Origin: Streptomyces sp. NRRL F-5135
GTDB lineage: Bacteria > Actinomycetota > Actinomycetes > Streptomycetales > Streptomycetaceae
DNA length: 64,000 bases
Assembly (NCBI RefSeq): GCF_000719775.1
Contig: NZ_JOHR01000008.1
Span: 62,001-126,000 of the forward strand
Direction of reading: 5' to 3'
Shown: one piece after another, positions 46,964 through 53,803 of the stretch
Layout of the letters: each line of letters opens with the position of its first letter
Numbering within the stretch: the first letter of the stretch is position 1
The notes under the pieces: generated by a model
What the model was told of the DNA's origin: nothing
The model's database searches: none
Seen by the model: only the letters and a program-made list of their open reading frames with translations
Program-made: the position numbers and the translations under genes

Positions 46964-47350
46964 TCACGCCGCCGGCGAACGGCCGCCGGAGGGAGACGAC
47001 CGGGGCTCCGCCCCCTCGTGCGTCCGCTCGGAGCCGTGCGCGGTGAAGACGAACGCCGAGCTGTCACCGTCCAGATCGATGGTCAGCGACGCGTCGAGCG
47101 CCTTGGCCAGGCGGGTGAGCAGGGGCAGGGTCGGTACGGAGTCCCCGCCTTCGATGGTCGAGATCTGCGGCTGGGTCATCCCGGCGCGTCGGGCCAGCTC
47201 CGCCTGCGACAGGCCGATTTCGGCGCGCCGGTCGAAGACCGCCTGCCCGAGCGCGAACGCGTATCCGGCCTCGGTGTAGGCGGGGGACTCCTCGACGGTC
47301 TCACCCAGCAGCCGCCTGGTCCGACGGGTCTTCCACTGCGCGTGATTCAC
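46964..47350 (-). CDS. XRE-family antitoxin (HigA-like), orphaned
   Basis: A 128-residue protein with GTG start overlapping the stop of a toxin remnant (GTGA). The HTH is AVFDRRAEIGLSQAELARRAGMTQPQISTIEGGDSVPTLPLLTRLAKALDASLTIDLD (residues ~35-95), as in HigA antitoxins. An N-terminal arm and an extended Ser/Gly/Pro tail are present. The upstream toxin gene is broken, so the antitoxin now stands alone at the edge of the island. Confidence 0.85.
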   Translation of the reverse strand: MNHAQWKTRRTRRLLGETVEESPAYTEAGYAFALGQAVFDRRAEIGLSQAELARRAGMTQPQISTIEGGDSVPTLPLLTRLAKALDASLTIDLDGDSSAFVFTAHGSERTHEGAEPRSSPSGGRSPAA

Positions 47351-47519
47351 AGCCGCTCCTCCTCGATCCGGTCGTACGTGTGCTCAGCTGGGCCATGCTC
47401 CGTCTCGCACACCTTCTGTGCCTGCTGGGCACGCTCAACCTCAACGGTCTCGCGCTGTCTGGCTCTTGCGGATCACCGTCAGCAACACGATGCGCCGCTG
47501 GGGAGCGAGCCAGTAGGCT
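47347..47519 (-). pseudogene. HigB/RelE-type toxin remnant, truncated and frameshifted
   Basis: Minus-strand translation gives AYWLAPQRRIVLLTVIRKSQ and then, in a frame one base away, ETVEVERAQQAQKVCETEHGPAEHTYDR followed by EEERL and a stop at 47347. These are the two halves of the C-terminal part of a HigB-type toxin, with one extra base near 47460. The N-terminal half is missing: similarity ends at about 47520, where the glycosyltransferase gene starts. It was probably destroyed when the sugar cluster arrived. Confidence 0.75.
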
Positions 47520-47526
47520 GCGCGGA

Positions 47527-48705
47527 GTGAACGAATCCTCCCGTCCGCCGAGTATCTTCCGTCTCATCGTCACGGGGGGAGGTACTGGCGGTCACACCTA
47601 CCCCGCGCTCACTGCGGTCCGGGCGTTGCAGGCCCGGCTGGCGGCCGACGGCCGGGCGCTCGACGTCCTCTGGATCGGCACGCCTGACGGGCTGGAGGCC
47701 CGTGTCGCCCCGGCCGAGGGCATCGCCTTCACGACGGTGGTGACGGGCAAGATCCGGCGGTCCGCGAACCCGCTCAAGATGATCAGCCCCGCGAACGTGC
47801 GAGACATGGCGCGTGTGCCGCTCGGTGTCGCCCAGGCCCGCAAGATCGTGAGGGACTTCCGGCCGGATGTCGTCCTCGCGACGGGCGGGTACGTCGCCGT
47901 CCCGGCCGGGCTCGCTGCCCGCATGTGCAAGCGCCCGCTGGTGCTGCACGAACAGACCGTGCGGCTCGGTCTGGCGAACCGGAAGCTCGCTGGGGCTGCG
48001 GCACGGATCGCCGTGTCGTCGGAGTCGACGCTCCCACTCCTCGCAGAGGCCGTTCGGCCTGCGGCCGTCGTCACCGGGAACCCGGTACGGCCGGAGATCC
48101 TGGCCGGGCACGCCGAGAAGGCGATCGCTGCCCTCGGGCTGGCCGGCTTCGACCGGCGGCTCCCGACGCTGTACGTCACCGGCGGCGCGCAGGGCGCGCA
48201 GCAGATCAACAACGTGATCCGGGACGCGCTCCCGTGGCTGGTGGAGCGCGCGAATGTAGTGCACCAGTGCGGGCCGGCGAACGTCGAGGACCTGCGTGCG
48301 AGCGCGTCGGCGCTCCCGCCGTCCCTTGCAGGGCGGTACTACCTCACTGGGTTCGTCGGCCCGGAGCTACCCGACGTCCTGGCGCTCGCCGACGTCGTGG
48401 TCTCCCGCAGTGGCGCCGGCACTCTCGCGGAGCTCACCGCCCTTGGCAAGCCGGCCGTATTCGTGCCGCTGGCCTCCTCTGCGGGGAACGAGCAGGCACA
48501 CAACGCCCAGCACCTCGAGGACGCCGGCGCCGCCATCGCGCTCACCGGTGAGGTCACCGCAGACCGGTTGCAGAACGCCCTTGAGCCGCTCCTCACCGAC
48601 CCGGCGCGGCGCAAGGGTATGGCGGAGGCGGCCCGGGCACACGGACGTCCGGACGCGGCGGACAGGCTCGTGGACGTGCTCCTGTCCGCCGCGTCCGGCG
48701 GCTGA
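47527..48705 (+). CDS. MurG-like glycosyltransferase (GT28/GT-B)
   Basis: A 392-residue protein with GTG start. The N-terminal acceptor domain has VTGGGTGGHTYPALTAVRAL and the C-terminal donor domain has YVTGGAQGAQQINNVIRDAL, HQCG, and SRSGAGTLAELTALGKPAVFVP, the MurG motifs for a nucleotide-sugar donor. It keeps the H-E-Q element (LVLHEQTVRLGLANRKLA). As the window lacks other dcw genes, this is a specialised paralogue. It converges with the phosphatase gene (16-bp gap), whose operon makes the likely amino-sugar donor. Acceptor unknown; a lipid-phosphate or a secondary metabolite is possible. Confidence 0.85.
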   Translation: MNESSRPPSIFRLIVTGGGTGGHTYPALTAVRALQARLAADGRALDVLWIGTPDGLEARVAPAEGIAFTTVVTGKIRRSANPLKMISPANVRDMARVPLGVAQARKIVRDFRPDVVLATGGYVAVPAGLAARMCKRPLVLHEQTVRLGLANRKLAGAAARIAVSSESTLPLLAEAVRPAAVVTGNPVRPEILAGHAEKAIAALGLAGFDRRLPTLYVTGGAQGAQQINNVIRDALPWLVERANVVHQCGPANVEDLRASASALPPSLAGRYYLTGFVGPELPDVLALADVVVSRSGAGTLAELTALGKPAVFVPLASSAGNEQAHNAQHLEDAGAAIALTGEVTADRLQNALEPLLTDPARRKGMAEAARAHGRPDAADRLVDVLLSAASGG

Positions 48706-48721
48706 CCGGCCGGGTCCGTGT

Positions 48722-49156
48722 CTACGGAAGGTGCCGCGGGGCACCGTCCTGGATGAGGCGGACGACGTCGGCGAACGCGGCCGGTTCTCCGCCCCAGGGG
48801 TCGGGGACGTCCCGGTCTGCGAGGTAGAGGCCGAGCTTCGGCGCCGCTTTCTCGTCGGCGAGCGCGCGGAGCGCGGTGACGTTGCCGGTATCCATCGCGA
48901 GGACGATGTCCGCCCACCCCAGCAGGTCGCGGGTGATGTGCACGCCGCGGTGCACGCTGAGGTCGTAGCCGGCCTCCGCCGCGGCGGTCACCATGTGCGC
49001 GTGCGCGGGATGCCCCACCCACTTGTCCCGGACACCGGCCGACCGGACCTCGACGGCTGGGCCGCCGAGCTCCGCGAGGACGAGCGCGGCGAGCGGTGAG
49101 CGGCAGTGGTTCCCGAGGCACACGGTGAGGATGCGCCGCGGCCGGGCGGCGCTCAC
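48722..49156 (-). CDS. Low-molecular-weight protein-tyrosine-phosphatase-like enzyme
   Basis: A 144-residue protein; GTG 49156 overlaps the aminotransferase stop (GTGA). The P-loop is VCLGNHCRSP (nucleophile Cys13, Arg19) and the general acid is in DVPDPWGG (Asp119), so the catalytic set is complete. Such enzymes act on phosphotyrosine or, in sugar clusters, may dephosphorylate a sugar-phosphate or regulate a kinase. It is the last gene of the RmlB/ATP-grasp/DegT operon and ends 16 bp from the convergent glycosyltransferase. Confidence 0.88.
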   Translation of the reverse strand: MSAARPRRILTVCLGNHCRSPLAALVLAELGGPAVEVRSAGVRDKWVGHPAHAHMVTAAAEAGYDLSVHRGVHITRDLLGWADIVLAMDTGNVTALRALADEKAAPKLGLYLADRDVPDPWGGEPAAFADVVRLIQDGAPRHLP

Positions 49157-50295
49157 CGGCCGCCCCCGACGAGAACACGCCGGAGTTCGCCGGCGGCGTG
49201 CTCGGCGTCCGTCAGCGTGAGGTGCTGGTGGAACGGGAGCGTCATGATCTCCCGGCCCAAGCGCTCGGTAACCGGCAGCGGCCGGTGCCAGGCGGCGAAG
49301 GCCGGTTGGGTGTGGTTGGGCGGGTAGTGCACGCCGACGCCGATGCCGCGGTTTCGGAGTTCGTGGAACACTCGGTCGCGGCGGCCGTCGAGGACGCGGA
49401 CGGCACACATCGGTGGGACCGTGCGGTCTACGTCGGCGTCGACCAGGTCGACGCCGACGATTCCGTCGAGGGCGGTGGCGTAGCCGCGCCATAGCGCGCG
49501 GCGCCGGGTCTCTGTCTCTGTGAAGTGGTCGAGTTGCACGAGGCCCACGGCGGCGTTCAGCGGCGACATCTGCGCACGCATACCAAACCCGCCGACGGTG
49601 TACGTCGTTGTCTCCGCGCGCCGGGCCGCAGGCTCCACGATGCCGAGGCCGCGGAGACGTCGGCAGGTGTCGGCCTCCAGCGGTGTTCGGGGGACAACCG
49701 CGCCGCCGAGCCCGCACGTGAGGTTCTTGATCGGCCCGAAGGAGAAGCACGTCACCACTCCGGTCGTGCCGACCCGACGCTGTCCCTGCCGTGAGCCGAA
49801 CGCCTGGGCGGCGTCCTCGACCACGGTCACGCCCTGCTCATCGAGCGCTGGCCGGGCCGAGGTGAGGTCGACGGCCCGGCCGCCGTAGAGAACCGGCATG
49901 ACCGCCCGGGTGTCCGGCGTGAGCGCGGCCAGGATTTGGGCGGCCTCGACGCACCCGGTGCCATGGTTGACTTCGACGAACCGCGGCCGGGCCCCAGTCG
50001 CGATGATCGCTTGCACGGTCGCGCAGAACGTGAAGGACGGCACGATCACCTCATGCCCGGGGCCGATCCCGGCGGCGAGCAGACCGACGTGGAGGGCGGC
50101 TGTGCCGGAGGCGACCGCGACGACGTCCGGAACGCCGAGGAAGGCCGCGATGCGCTGCTCGAACTCGTCCGTGATCGGGCCGTGGTTGTACTGGCCGGAG
50201 CGTAACGCGGAGGCGATAGCGGCCTCCTCACCGCCGTAGAGGTACGGGCGGGCGTTCCGCGCAAGGTCCGGGGATGGGGATGCGGTGCGGCTCAT
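49153..50295 (-). CDS. DegT/DnrJ/EryC1/StrS-family sugar aminotransferase
   Basis: A 380-residue PLP enzyme. It has SGQYNHGPITDEFEQRIAAFLG, VASGTAALHVGLLAAGIGPG, VIVPSFTFCATVQAI, VVEDAAQAFGS (Asp161) and the PLP lysine in CFSFGPIKNLTCGLGG (Lys190), followed by GVHYPPNH near the end. The family installs an amino group on NDP-keto-sugars. The RmlB-like gene at the head of the operon would supply a dTDP-4-keto-6-deoxyglucose substrate, so a 3- or 4-amino-dideoxy sugar is the expected product. Coupled on both sides by overlapping start/stop codons. Confidence 0.9.
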   Translation of the reverse strand: MSRTASPSPDLARNARPYLYGGEEAAIASALRSGQYNHGPITDEFEQRIAAFLGVPDVVAVASGTAALHVGLLAAGIGPGHEVIVPSFTFCATVQAIIATGARPRFVEVNHGTGCVEAAQILAALTPDTRAVMPVLYGGRAVDLTSARPALDEQGVTVVEDAAQAFGSRQGQRRVGTTGVVTCFSFGPIKNLTCGLGGAVVPRTPLEADTCRRLRGLGIVEPAARRAETTTYTVGGFGMRAQMSPLNAAVGLVQLDHFTETETRRRALWRGYATALDGIVGVDLVDADVDRTVPPMCAVRVLDGRRDRVFHELRNRGIGVGVHYPPNHTQPAFAAWHRPLPVTERLGREIMTLPFHQHLTLTDAEHAAGELRRVLVGGGR

Positions 50296-51260
50296 CGCGG
50301 CGTCCCTTCGCTGGTGGCCAGCGTCTCGACGTACTTCGTGAGGGTGACATCCGGCTTGTAAGTGAGCTGGTCATGGTCGACGTCCTGGCGGAAGAGGCCG
50401 CGGAGGTACTGCCCGACGTAGTCCGCGCCGGCCGCGGCAGAGGCGGGGAATCCTCCGCCGACCCTGGCATTGGTCTCGGTGATGACGACGCGGTCCGGGC
50501 CCTGCTCGTCACGGATGAAGCCCTGCACGCAGCACGCCCCGGTGACACCCGTCGCGGTGAGTGTCGCTCGGACGCACTCGGCGGCCTGGGCGTCGGTGAA
50601 CGTGCGGGAGACAACGGCGAGCCCGCCCTTGACCAGGAGCCGGTATCGGAGGATCACGGACGCCTGGCCGGCACGGTCAACGAGGCAGTCCGCAGTGAAC
50701 TCCCGCCCGTGGATGTACTCCTGCGCGATCGGCTCTGGTACGAGCTCGCACAGTACCCGGGCCTGGTCCCGCGTCCGGCACACATGCACGCCCTTGGTGC
50801 CCTGTCCGTATCGGGGTTTGACGACGAGAGGGCCGTCCGGGGCACGGTCGAGTTCATCCGGGAGGATGGTGCGCGGCGTCGGTACTCCGTGTTCGGCGAG
50901 CACGGCGGCGAACCGGGCCTTGTCGCCGCACGCCGTGACTGCATCCCGGGTCGGGAGCCAGGTGGTGACGCCGAGGTCGGCCAGCGGCCGACGGAGGGTG
51001 ACCAGGCTCGGGAGTTCCCACTCGACAGTGGAGAGGATGCCGTGCGGGCGGGTCTCCGCACACAGCCGGAGCAGAGCCGCGCGGTACGTGGGGTCCGCCG
51101 CTGGTGGGAGGACGTGCGCGGTGACCTCCGGGAGGAGGAGCCCGGCCGCGTGCGGGTCCGCGTCGGCCGCGAGAACATTACAGCCGAGCCTCTGGAGGGA
51201 CCGGGCGAGGTCGAAGCCGGGAGCGCCGCCGACGCCGGTCACGAGGATGCGCTTGGGCAT
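50292..51260 (-). CDS. ATP-grasp ligase (carbamoyl-phosphate-synthase-like)
   Basis: A 322-residue protein. An N-terminal pre-ATP-grasp Rossmann domain (ILVTGVGGAPGFDLARSLQRLG) is followed by the ATP-grasp core: CGDKARFAAVLAEHGVPTPR, LVVKPRYGQGTKGVHVCR, AQEYIHGREFTADCLVD and a metal site in ITETNARVGGGFPASAAAGAD. These enzymes form amide or similar bonds using an acyl-phosphate. In the middle of a sugar aminotransferase operon it may acylate the new amino group with an amino acid or carboxylate; this is inference. It starts six bases after the RmlB-like stop and overlaps the DegT gene. Confidence 0.88.
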   Translation of the reverse strand: MPKRILVTGVGGAPGFDLARSLQRLGCNVLAADADPHAAGLLLPEVTAHVLPPAADPTYRAALLRLCAETRPHGILSTVEWELPSLVTLRRPLADLGVTTWLPTRDAVTACGDKARFAAVLAEHGVPTPRTILPDELDRAPDGPLVVKPRYGQGTKGVHVCRTRDQARVLCELVPEPIAQEYIHGREFTADCLVDRAGQASVILRYRLLVKGGLAVVSRTFTDAQAAECVRATLTATGVTGACCVQGFIRDEQGPDRVVITETNARVGGGFPASAAAGADYVGQYLRGLFRQDVDHDQLTYKPDVTLTKYVETLATSEGTPR

Positions 51261-51266
51261 CGCCGG

Positions 51267-52289
51267 TCACCGCCCTGCTGGAGTGGCGGGCACGGCGCGC
51301 CGCGCGGGCGGAGGCGCAGCCTGCGGGTTCCGCATCAGCGGCGCCCACCGGTCGGGGTTGCGGCGGTACCAGTCGACGGCCTCGGCCAGGCCGTCTTCCA
51401 AGTCCCGCTCAGGCCGGTACCCGAGTTGGGCGGATGCCTTTGAACAGTCGATCGAGTACCGCAGGTCGTTCGCCGGCCGGTCGGGGACGTAGGTCACCGC
51501 CTCCCAGGTGGCGCCGTAGATGCGCAGCAGGTACTCGGTGAGTTCCTGGCCGGTAAGGTCCGTGCCGCCGCCGAGGTTGTAGACCTCTCCGGGGGTGCCG
51601 CTGCGGAGGGCGGCCTCGATGCCGGCGCAGTTGTCTTCGACGTGGAGCCAGTTTCTGACGTGCTCGCCCCGGCCGTGGAGGGTGACCGGCTGCCCGCGCA
51701 GAAGCTGGGTGACGAACAGAGGGATGATCTTCTCGGGGTGCTGGTACGGGCCGTAGTTGTTCGAGGAGCGGGTCACACACACCGGCACCCCGTACGTCTG
51801 CCAGTACGAGAGGGCAATGAGGTCGCTCGCGGCCTTCGACGCGGCGTAGGGGACGGAGGGGCGGAGCGGGGAGTCCTCGGTGGCCGTGCCTTCCAGGAGC
51901 GGGCCGTAGACCTCGTCTGTCGAGACGTGCACGAACCTTTGCACCTCGTGCCGCGTCGCGGCGTCCAGGAGGGTCTGCGTGCCGCGGACGTTCGTCTCCA
52001 GGAACGCGGCGGCTGCGAAGAACGAGCGGTCGACGTGGGACTCCGCAGCGAAGTGCACGACCGCCGTGTGCTTGTCCATCAGACTGTCCACGAGTTCGGC
52101 ATCGAGGATGTTGCCGTGGACGAACGTGAGCTTCGGGCTGAGGAACGCCGTCCCCAAGTTCTCGATGTGGCCGGCGTAGGTGAGAGCGTCGACCACGGTC
52201 ACGGTCGCGACGTCGTCCGCGGCCAGGATGCGCTTGACGAAGTGCGAGCCGATGAAGCCCGCCCCACCGGTCACGAGCACGTGTTCCAT
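51267..52289 (-). CDS. dTDP-glucose 4,6-dehydratase-like enzyme (RmlB family)
   Basis: A 340-residue extended SDR. ATG 52289 (GGGAGG seven bases upstream) gives MEHVLVTGGAGFIGSHFVKR. NAD motif TGGAGFIG at 7-14; catalytic STDEVYG with Thr124-Asp125-Glu126, the dehydratase triad; Tyr148/Lys152 in YAASK; RSSNNYGPYQHPEKIIPLF and RNWLHVEDN also match RmlB closely. The C-terminal ~25 residues are Pro/Ala/Arg-rich. It should produce a 4-keto-6-deoxy NDP-sugar for the DegT enzyme. No nucleotidyltransferase is present, so dTDP-glucose would come from housekeeping metabolism. Confidence 0.92.
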   Translation of the reverse strand: MEHVLVTGGAGFIGSHFVKRILAADDVATVTVVDALTYAGHIENLGTAFLSPKLTFVHGNILDAELVDSLMDKHTAVVHFAAESHVDRSFFAAAAFLETNVRGTQTLLDAATRHEVQRFVHVSTDEVYGPLLEGTATEDSPLRPSVPYAASKAASDLIALSYWQTYGVPVCVTRSSNNYGPYQHPEKIIPLFVTQLLRGQPVTLHGRGEHVRNWLHVEDNCAGIEAALRSGTPGEVYNLGGGTDLTGQELTEYLLRIYGATWEAVTYVPDRPANDLRYSIDCSKASAQLGYRPERDLEDGLAEAVDWYRRNPDRWAPLMRNPQAAPPPARRAVPATPAGR

Positions 52290-52418
52290 GCATGCCTCCC
52301 TGGCAGGAAGGAGATGGCCCGGCATAGCCGCGGCCGTCTGGAGTCACCCGGCCGAGCGGCCGGTCGCTTTCACCATGCGGGACTCGGATGAGGGCCGGGA
52401 GGTATCTCCCGCTGGTCC

Positions 52419-52451
52419 GCACACGGCGTGCGTGGCACGCACATCGTGTGC
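52419..52451. promoter_or_regulatory. 33-bp symmetrical operator between the sugar operon and its XRE regulator
   Basis: GTGCGTG-G-CACGCAC (52428-52442) is a perfect palindrome, and around the same centre (52435) lie GCACAC (52419-52424) and GTGTGC (52446-52451). The double-symmetry site is in the divergent interval between the RmlB-like start (52289) and the XRE start (52520), as expected for an operator controlling one or both. Confidence 0.72.
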
Positions 52452-52519
52452 ATCCGTACGCCCTCCCGGCGTCGGGAGGTTGGCGCTACCGTCGTCCCTC
52501 CCACCCGTAGGAGGTACCT

Positions 52520-53803
52520 ATGGAGGGCGTCAAATCAGCGCGTGAGATCGGGGCTGAGCTGCGCGGGGCCCGGGCCCGTGCCGGCCTTACACAGAGACAG
52601 GTCGGGAGCGCGGTCGGCTACTCGGCTTCGGCCGTCTCGCGGATCGAGGCCGGCAAATTGCGGCTTGAGCATGACCGGCTGTTGGCGTTCGCGTCGTTCC
52701 TGCACATCGCACCCGACAGGCTGGCGGGGACTCCTGTGCCTGTCAGTGCCGTGCTCGGTACGGTGGAGCACCCAGCGGATGAGGAGAATGCGGTGCGTCG
52801 TAGGAACCTGTTCACTGGGTCGCTGGCGATCGGAGTCACGGCAGCGCTCGGAAGCCCGCAAACCACTGTCGCCGCTGGCCTGGCCCACTCCGGGAGGCTG
52901 GAGGACGCACTGCTTTCGGGGTTGCCACGGTGCAAGTCCGCGCCAACCACGGCTGCTGTCAAGTCTGCGGTCACGCGCGCACGCGCAGCTCTGGAAGCCG
53001 GTGCTTACCAGGAACTGGATGCGGGTCTTCCTCAGCACCTCGCGCTCGCCACCGCCGCAGTCCGCGAGGGGCATGGCACGGAGGGGTTGTCCGCGTTGTA
53101 CTCCATCGCGGCGCGAGTAGCGATCAAGGCGGGTGATGACCATCTGTTGATCGTGGCGGCCGACCGAGCGGTGCAGGCTGCACGTGACGGCGGCCATTCC
53201 CTGGCCCTTGCCGAGGCACACCGGATGGTCTCCAGTGGGTATCGTCGCGCAGGCCGTTATGACCGGGCGGCTCAGGTAGCAGTCCGGGCGGCTGATGAAC
53301 TCGCGAGTGCACGGGACGTTCCTGCCGGAGCGCGGGCGTCAGCTCAAGGCCAATTGCTGGCCACGGCAGCCTATACAGCGGCAAAGGGCGCGGACCGAAG
53401 CGGCGCCATGGAACTGCTGGCGCGGGCGGACGCTGTGGCTGGCCGGAGTGCTGATGAACAGACGGCCGGCGGCTGGTTCGGTCCCCGACAGGTGATCTTG
53501 CACGAGGTGTCCGTGCATCAGGTGCTCAGCGCTCCTGACAAAGCCGTGGCGGCTGCGCGGCGGGTCGACCCGCGGGGACTGCCGCTCGAACGTGTGGCCC
53601 GACTGGGGCTCGATGTAGCCCGGGCCTACAGCGACTGGGGGCGTCCGGAGGCGTGTTTGCGGGCATTGCTCTCGGTAGAGCGTGTGGTGCCGCAGGAGGT
53701 GCGGCGGCCGGGGACGCGTGCGTTGACGGCGGGTTTGCTGTTCGGGCCGCATGTGCCGGGGCTTCGCGAGTTCGCCGCTCGCACCGGAGCGCTTCTCATT
53801 TGA
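52520..53803 (+). CDS. XRE-family regulator with TPR-like C-terminal domain
   Basis: A 427-residue protein, TAGGAGG six bases before ATG 52520. The HTH (AREIGAELRGARARAGLTQRQVGSAVGYSASAVSRIEAGKLRLE) occupies residues 6-50. The remainder is helical-repeat-like (ALYSIAARVAIKAGDDHLLIVAADRAVQAARDGG, YRRAGRYDRAAQVAVRAADELA), as in large Streptomyces XRE/TPR regulators that bind a peptide or small ligand. It is divergent from the sugar operon and probably controls it through the 33-bp symmetrical operator. Confidence 0.88.
   Translation: MEGVKSAREIGAELRGARARAGLTQRQVGSAVGYSASAVSRIEAGKLRLEHDRLLAFASFLHIAPDRLAGTPVPVSAVLGTVEHPADEENAVRRRNLFTGSLAIGVTAALGSPQTTVAAGLAHSGRLEDALLSGLPRCKSAPTTAAVKSAVTRARAALEAGAYQELDAGLPQHLALATAAVREGHGTEGLSALYSIAARVAIKAGDDHLLIVAADRAVQAARDGGHSLALAEAHRMVSSGYRRAGRYDRAAQVAVRAADELASARDVPAGARASAQGQLLATAAYTAAKGADRSGAMELLARADAVAGRSADEQTAGGWFGPRQVILHEVSVHQVLSAPDKAVAAARRVDPRGLPLERVARLGLDVARAYSDWGRPEACLRALLSVERVVPQEVRRPGTRALTAGLLFGPHVPGLREFAARTGALLI

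Follow-up and report, generated by a model that had tools for sequence, protein, structure and literature searches.

The stretch of Streptomyces sp. NRRL F-5135 DNA analyzed here (64,000 nucleotides of contig NZ_JOHR01000008.1; hereafter the window) comes from a genome of 8.0 Mb and carries, between its positions 47527 and 53803, a compact set of six genes (Table 1). Four of them form an operon in the order RmlB-like dehydratase, ATP-grasp ligase, DegT aminotransferase and low-molecular-weight phosphatase (LMWP), with successive spacings of 6, -4 and -4 bases. A MurG-like glycosyltransferase gene is convergent with this operon, the stop codons of the MurG-like and LMWP genes being 16 bases apart, and the gene for an XRE-type helix-turn-helix (HTH) regulator is divergent from the RmlB-like gene. 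Of the two starts given for the RmlB-like gene, the inner one is favored by a GGGAGG immediately upstream. All six genes are intact and the catalytic motifs are present in their translations. This arrangement, with its overlaps and its 6-base gap, had been described in an earlier sequence-only reading of the same DNA, and our coordinates and family assignments agree with it.

Table 1. Features of the six-gene set in the window
Feature	Position	Strand	Remarks
MurG-like GT28 glycosyltransferase	47527..48705	+	392 aa; extra copy; PF03033 + PF04101
Low-molecular-weight phosphatase (LMWP)	48722..49156	-	144 aa; PF01451 (LMWPc) E 8.7e-24
DegT/DnrJ/EryC1/StrS sugar aminotransferase	49153..50295	-	380 aa; PF01041 E 4e-91
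ATP-grasp ligase	50292..51260	-	322 aa; ATP-grasp_3 E 1.7e-12; predicted amide-forming
RmlB-like NDP-glucose 4,6-dehydratase	51267..52325	-	likelier start 52289; TIGR01181 383.4 vs cut-off 365.1
Divergent promoter region	52326..52519		GCACACGGCGTGC half-site common with L027, a weak candidate operator
XRE-type HTH regulator	52520..53803	+	427 aa; PF13560 E 2.8e-13

The RmlB-like protein is over the TIGR01181 cut-off and thus classed as a nucleoside diphosphate (NDP)-glucose 4,6-dehydratase, the nucleotide donor being predicted; its closest structure is 1r66 (E 7e-110), which we take to be DesIV, and it has STDEVYG and YxxxK, presumably its catalytic motifs. Membership of the aminotransferase in the DegT family is sure and it is related to the structures 2oga and ArnB, but it falls below the PseC, ArnB-type, WecE and DesI cut-offs and so is not assigned to a 4-aminotransferase equivalog; the lysine in its SFGPIKNLTCG motif is, we assume, likely to bind pyridoxal phosphate. 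We take CxGNxCRS and DP to be the catalytic motifs of the LMWP. The ATP-grasp enzyme has an ExN motif, presumably a catalytic one, and E262 and N264 are invariant in an alignment of 53 sequences. Its best family match is PRK12767, yet its score is under all five PRK12767 cut-offs. Its predicted structure (pLDDT 94.6) is nearest to 2pn1 and also resembles biotin carboxylases, the L-amino acid ligase 3vot coming at rank 17; the structure models of this enzyme and of the MurG-like protein were built on 53 and 33 sequences, respectively. An RmlB and a DegT enzyme together yield an NDP-amino-dideoxyhexose with the amine at C4 if no isomerase acts, and ATP-grasp ligases couple a carboxylate to an amine via an acyl phosphate. 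The enzymes plausibly fit the formation of an acylated 4-amino-4,6-dideoxyhexose, a sugar chemistry that we infer from their families, and to this extent the proposal of the sequence-only reading that the genes make and acylate an amino-dideoxy sugar stands.

For the regulator, a Pfam scan found HTH domains only, the label of a C-terminal TPR region having come from the sequence-only reading. Its gene is the most rapidly changing one in most locus comparisons. A tblastn match to it is divergent from the RmlB gene in eight complete or partial loci elsewhere (L025-L029, L031, L033 and L054), and other loci have a divergent reading frame in its position instead. An operator in the divergent promoter region was considered and dropped: the inverted repeats of the window are no better than those of shuffled sequence, the best being equalled in 168 of 500 shuffles, which leaves the half-site common with L027 as its only support.

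The sequence-only reading had allowed that the genes might not be conserved together. They are: RmlB, ATP-grasp, DegT and MurG-like genes are combined in 17 loci that lie outside the genome of the window (L025-L030, L043, L044, L047-L054 and L056; L046 was excluded as a second copy of L026). The LMWP gene is present in 15 of the 17 and absent from the other cassettes, and two of the 17 lie on plasmids. In three more loci (L095, L097 and L178) the ATP-grasp slot is filled by another, longer ATP-grasp protein (372-410 aa as read), which is Ddl/PurT-like in L097 and L178, where an LMWP piece of 19-55 aa remains. The orientation of the MurG-like gene is convergent in the window and co-directional with the operon in L030 and L050, where no XRE match was seen by tblastn. 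Our genome survey was a sample of 392 genomes of the same genus, in which the best few candidates per genome were scored. In it the ATP-grasp protein matched 14 genomes (E ≤ 1e-50), 12 of them in a cassette (a broken one in G415) and the remaining two, G047 and G223, at 46% identity and outside any cassette. Among ten loci fetched by ATP-grasp, L025-L029 are complete and L030 is without LMWP; L031 is ended by a contig edge and has its ATP-grasp as two overlapping pieces; L033 is without DegT, its ATP-grasp and LMWP being partial; L032 has a 46% ATP-grasp as its sole cassette relative; and L034, from Corynebacterium, has a 30% partial ATP-grasp match. The surroundings of the 40-46% ATP-grasp relatives L032, L057, L058 and L061 are unrelated to the cassette, and of five neighbors scanned in L032 and L057 four were without a Pfam match and one was weakly CAAX-protease-like. 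In a class-wide sample of 296 genomes an ATP-grasp alignment matched five at E ≤ 1e-50, namely that of the window, G415 and three genomes from other genera, whose short loci (L186-L188) had no further cassette gene within 3.9 kb.

The set is also free-standing and mobile. Over 60 loci, the only border genes that recur in a constant position do so in closely related loci, which bears out the earlier view that the set stands alone; conserved extra border genes were thus rejected, the recurrent clusters being scattered or limited to near kin (L025/L028/L092, L052/L056 and L111/L130/L131). The genes beside MurG were called with a purpose-written codon-score script. In the window, an HTH_3 antitoxin-like gene (46964-47530, minus strand) adjoins the start of the MurG-like gene, and a short stretch upstream of it may be what is left of a toxin gene. 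Homology between the window and L027, at 85%, is confined to the cassette: it extends from the end of the XRE gene and stops some 16 bases short of the start of MurG, and the flanks are unrelated; therefore, the set moves as a unit. A cassette without LMWP adjoins integrase and relaxase genes on the Nocardia asteroides plasmid NZ_CP089213, a complete one is on a plasmid of Streptomyces sp. NBC_01343, and pSGZL of Streptomyces sp. 769 has a variant with the longer ATP-grasp and an LMWP piece. The gene distances of the five enzymes are correlated (Mantel r 0.51 to 0.95, each p 0.001), ATP-grasp, DegT and LMWP being the tightest and MurG the loosest: r is 0.54 for MurG with ATP-grasp and 0.51 with LMWP against 0.95 for ATP-grasp with LMWP. 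Mean pairwise identities in 16 to 20 cassettes are 75% for MurG, 70% for RmlB, 63% for DegT, 60% for ATP-grasp and 59% for LMWP.

The MurG-like protein has both GT28 domains, and its score of 247.9 is just below the TIGR01133 murG cut-off of 250.25, which leaves it outside that equivalog; a relative in G382 (neighbors in frame) scores 250.4. The window's genome has a murG above the family cut-off elsewhere, on contig C7 (G000:C7:109566-110615). The MurG-like protein is 33% identical to that copy and 33-34% identical to four housekeeping murG copies. A TIGR01133 search found an above-cut-off murG in 24 of 24 genomes, including 20 of 20 carriers of the MurG-like gene, and thus this gene is an extra copy in the carriers searched. 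GGTGGH, GGYV, HEQ, GNPVR, GA.T..E and EQ..NA, which we take to mark the lipid I and UDP-N-acetylglucosamine (UDP-GlcNAc) sites, are present in nearly all of 68 MurG-like copies. Residues A221, G298 and K308, which fall within C-terminal-half motifs or close to them, are S, M and L in the four housekeeping MurGs compared; such changes would fit an altered sensitivity to an inhibitor or an altered donor. The first six Protein Data Bank matches of the predicted fold (pLDDT 84.3) are all MurG. A conserved glutamate in the donor site was dropped as proof of a UDP donor because Kcn28, the kitacinnamycin glycosyltransferase, shares it.

The MurG-like gene is found far more widely than the sugar genes. 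As bait, it gave 61 places in 57 of the 392 genomes (E ≤ 1e-90), while the cassette DegT gave 14 genomes (E ≤ 1e-85), which are the 12 with the ATP-grasp cassette together with G014 (L095) and G382 (L097). An intact MurG-like gene adjoins the set in 13 of these 14; in the other, G415 (L055), RmlB is broken and MurG is reduced to a piece of 151 aa. The LMWP bait gave 18 genomes (E ≤ 1e-18), of which 16 also carry the MurG-like gene, the others being G415 and G202. Among the 61 MurG places the set is present at 13, pieces of DegT, LMWP or ATP-grasp at 14, and none was found at 34, so that 48 are without the set; wide flanks were available for 60 of the 61 and only 1.5 kb for L091, one of the 34. 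In the 14 remnant loci (L093, L099, L102, L103, L109, L110, L118, L120-L122, L124, L127, L164 and L169) the pieces adjoin the MurG stop, their order and strand being as expected, with a whole LMWP in L099 and L124 and best E-values per locus ranging from 3e-83 (L099) to 3e-5 (L164). A 51-aa LMWP-like piece 2 kb away in L113 was not counted. MurG reads uninterrupted over at least 340 aa at 57 of the 61 places and is shortened or broken in L167-L170. Loci L025 and L092 have both flanks in common and are 89% identical in DNA over the stretch with the MurG-like gene; the sugar genes are in one and were not found in the other. The loss of the sugar genes at L120, where pieces remain, is recent because its MurG is nearly identical to that of the complete L044 (dN 0.002, dS 0.027). 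At L102, L104, L109, L110, L120 and L129 the MurG-like gene lies less than 0.5 Mb from the end of a large contig, a position common for accessory genes of linear chromosomes.

In a tree of the 68 MurG-like proteins, presence and absence of the set are scattered nearly at random (Fitch score 17, as against a mean of 18.1 and a minimum of 14 in shuffles). If the set was gained once, it must have been lost 29 times on the resolved tree, and still at least 25 times with a support limit of 0.7 and 15 times with one of 0.9; L025-L033 were fetched by ATP-grasp, so this tree is enriched in cassette-bearing loci. Instead of loss, the sugar genes could have been acquired repeatedly next to a MurG-like gene already in place, but loss does occur, as the remnants show.

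The MurG-like gene is under purifying selection also where the set is missing. For the 859 pairs without the set, the ratio of nonsynonymous to synonymous substitution (dN/dS) has a median of 0.19; the median is 0.18 for the 710 mixed pairs and 0.16 for the 131 pairs with the set, and the highest values in these three classes are 0.97, 0.81 and 0.31, respectively. Pairs were limited to dS 0.05-1.0, and the pairs and the 68 aligned copies are non-independent by kinship; seven MurG pieces under 340 aa (L055, L167-L170, L176 and L177) and L171-L175 were excluded from the tree and from dN/dS, L171-L177 belonging to another MurG group. The 68 proteins have 76 invariant positions, and no alignment column splits the copies with the set from those without it. 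Since selection is similar and no column separates them, the job of the MurG-like protein is probably the same with and without the operon, and its donor probably does not depend on the operon, because the gene is kept under selection where the operon is missing.

It is here that the other part of the sequence-only reading, in which the MurG-like protein transfers the acylated amino sugar to a host molecule (for example lipid I, a polyprenyl phosphate or a wall polymer), loses ground. The GT28 fold, the constant linkage, the correlated distances, the co-directional genes of L030 and L050 and a sugar cluster on pSVL1, described below, are what one would expect of such a transferase. However, most carriers have no means of making the required donor by this pathway, given that the gene is kept under purifying selection at 48 of 61 places without the donor pathway and with no separating column, and MurG structures match the protein far better than TDP-sugar transferases do (1f0k, a MurG, E 3e-24; CalG1 3e-14). 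We therefore consider the transfer unlikely. That MurG-like orphans are kept without the sugar genes suggests instead that the protein protects the cell rather than finishes a sugar product.

We tentatively propose, as a reading that is possible though short of probable, that the lipid II step is the target of a minimal sugar-amide made by the operon and that the MurG-like protein is a resistant spare target. RmlB would make NDP-4-keto-6-deoxyglucose, the DegT enzyme would aminate it, probably at C4, the ATP-grasp ligase would join a carboxylate, likely an amino acid, to the sugar amine, and the phosphatase may strip a phosphate from an intermediate or from the product, the XRE protein controlling the divergent operon. 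The product would interfere with lipid II synthesis or its substrates by reaching or mimicking the lipid I/UDP-GlcNAc step. The MurG-like protein would be an alternative lipid II synthase that tolerates the product, required while the operon works and persisting afterwards as an orphan.

Several points weigh against this proposal. The substrates, the product, its target and inhibitory action, and the lipid II activity of the MurG-like protein are what we infer, and the cassette has no exporter gene. A co-directional MurG-like gene at the operon end, as in L030 and L050, is what a tailoring transferase would show. A whole LMWP is sometimes kept, in L099 and L124 and also without an adjacent MurG in L182 (G102), which has a 55-aa DegT piece and a MurG-like gene elsewhere in the genome, and in L183 (G202), in whose genome no MurG-like gene was found. 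At four of the 61 places, L167-L170, it is the MurG-like gene that is shortened or broken. The MurG-anchored survey is biased to cases that retain MurG, and its E-value limit to genes that are whole; anchoring the survey on DegT or on LMWP gave an agreeing picture, but short remnants in genomes without MurG would escape these two surveys. MurG-like genes also adjoin other biosynthetic genes: on pSVL1 of Streptomyces vietnamensis (L180) one of 53% identity is inside a larger sugar cluster, and in L111 one is beside a B12 radical SAM protein, distantly KedN5-like, and a weakly clavaminate-synthase-like protein, both below cut-off (relatives of both are in L131 and of the radical SAM protein in L130). 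Both a common spare target and a common transferase would be compatible with the L111 group and with pSVL1.

What weakens the proposal most is that a stress role like that of MglA would retain the orphans too; they could bring an advantage that has nothing to do with any product, as seems to be the case for MglA. According to Zhang et al. (2021, PMC8092295), MglA, a distant MurG homologue of Kitasatospora viridifaciens, replaces MurG and is a demonstrated lipid II synthase, and MurG-like genes, which fall into many similarity groups, are carried by 38% of the strains of Streptomyces and Kitasatospora. The MurG-like protein could likewise be an alternative lipid II synthase useful under stress, with the sugar operon as an easily lost accessory giving an altered sugar or signal. 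That copies without the set are common and conserved is consistent with this, and so is the fact that the correlation of MurG with ATP-grasp and LMWP distances is weaker than that between the latter two. It leaves unexplained why an intact MurG-like gene is beside every intact operon surveyed (13 of 13) and why it is inside the unit common to the window and L027, and we regard it as rather unlikely, if worth serious attention.

The small size and mobility of the set, seen in the plasmids of N. asteroides and Streptomyces sp. NBC_01343 and in the variant of Streptomyces sp. 769, its XRE switch and its asymmetric loss would also suit an addiction or defence cassette, in which the operon product harms its own cell, the XRE switch restrains it and the MurG-like protein is the antidote. 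We find this improbable. PADLOC gave no defence-family match, just weak HTH matches of the regulator, and a defence system was rejected on this ground. A phage origin was rejected as well, since the PHROGs matches are to general enzyme and regulator families with none for MurG; 24 phage records have MurG matches, all below 60% identity, and viral contigs gave two ATP-grasp relatives at 24-29%. In our judgement, a four-enzyme pathway is also unusual for such a module.

The neighbors of some other MurG-like genes are as follows. The pSVL1 cluster has radical SAM, SPASM, UDP-galactopyranose mutase, WbqC, DegT, NTP transferase and NUDIX genes. In L111, L131 and L130 the MurG-like gene (66-70%) is directly downstream of the B12-binding radical SAM gene, which makes another small operon with a MurG copy. 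In L181, from Nonomuraea gerenzanensis, a MurG-like gene of 52-54% immediately follows a gene with an FGE-sulfatase domain. In addition, L171-L175 form a second accessory MurG group, 30-35% identical to the cassette MurG-like protein, in which a short-chain dehydrogenase/reductase 34-37% identical to the RmlB-like protein adjoins in five of five; this could be the MglA group.

If the spare-target proposal is extended, mobile minimal operons would make sugar-amides that block MurG or its lipid-linked substrate, the MurG-like protein would be an insensitive replacement, and orphans would record past exposure. This generalization is doubtful. If true, cassettes with a swapped ATP-grasp (L095, L097 and pSGZL) would make product variants. 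A review (PMC9544107) names transition-state analogues, vancomycin derivatives, 'Monomycin' and the steroid-like murgocil as inhibitors of MurG, and no useful drug is among them. Should the spare-target proposal itself be true, Streptomyces would be a further source of compounds acting at the MurG step, with the tolerant enzyme as a marker, and the distribution of MurG-like genes in Streptomycetaceae would be explained in part.

The sequence-only reading could not place the set in a known pathway, and we likewise found no description of it in a search of openly licensed PubMed Central papers and by family names, a search that did not extend to MIBiG. As in DesIV/DegT dTDP-amino sugar pathways, to which its RmlB-like and DegT enzymes are structurally related (1r66; 2oga and ArnB), the set begins with a dehydratase and an aminotransferase, but it has no ketoisomerase, methyltransferase or aglycone gene and has an ATP-grasp ligase. 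The ntdCAB/kabCAB kanosamine operons of Bacillus are likewise minimal, with a sugar aminotransferase and a phosphatase, but as described they start from glucose-6-phosphate via a dehydrogenase and have no 4,6-dehydratase, ATP-grasp ligase or MurG copy (PMC8788734). In several actinobacterial orders murG-like genes adjoin glycopeptide-resistance genes, their contribution being called unknown there (PMC8698665). MglA and the cassette MurG-like protein are both extra GT28 proteins with both MurG domains, patchy in Streptomycetaceae, and are 31% and 33-34% identical to housekeeping MurG, respectively (PMC8092295). With PF03033 and PF04101 in a second copy besides murG, at close to the ~31% identity of MglA, the MurG-like protein resembles MglA, the likeness being one of domains and identity; MglA is about 350 aa by its coordinates as against 392 aa. 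The main text of that paper has no match for dTDP, aminotransferase or ATP-grasp (PMC8092295). Finally, target-duplicate self-resistance of the ARTS type, as it is described, differs in that the cassette is without scaffold-building genes and that its product and target are predicted ones. The likeness is that a divergent second copy of an essential gene is linked to a biosynthetic operon, with orphan copies elsewhere, and that, apart from the exceptions or partial cases L055, L182, L183 and L167-L170, the duplicate outlasts the operon and the operon is not kept alone.

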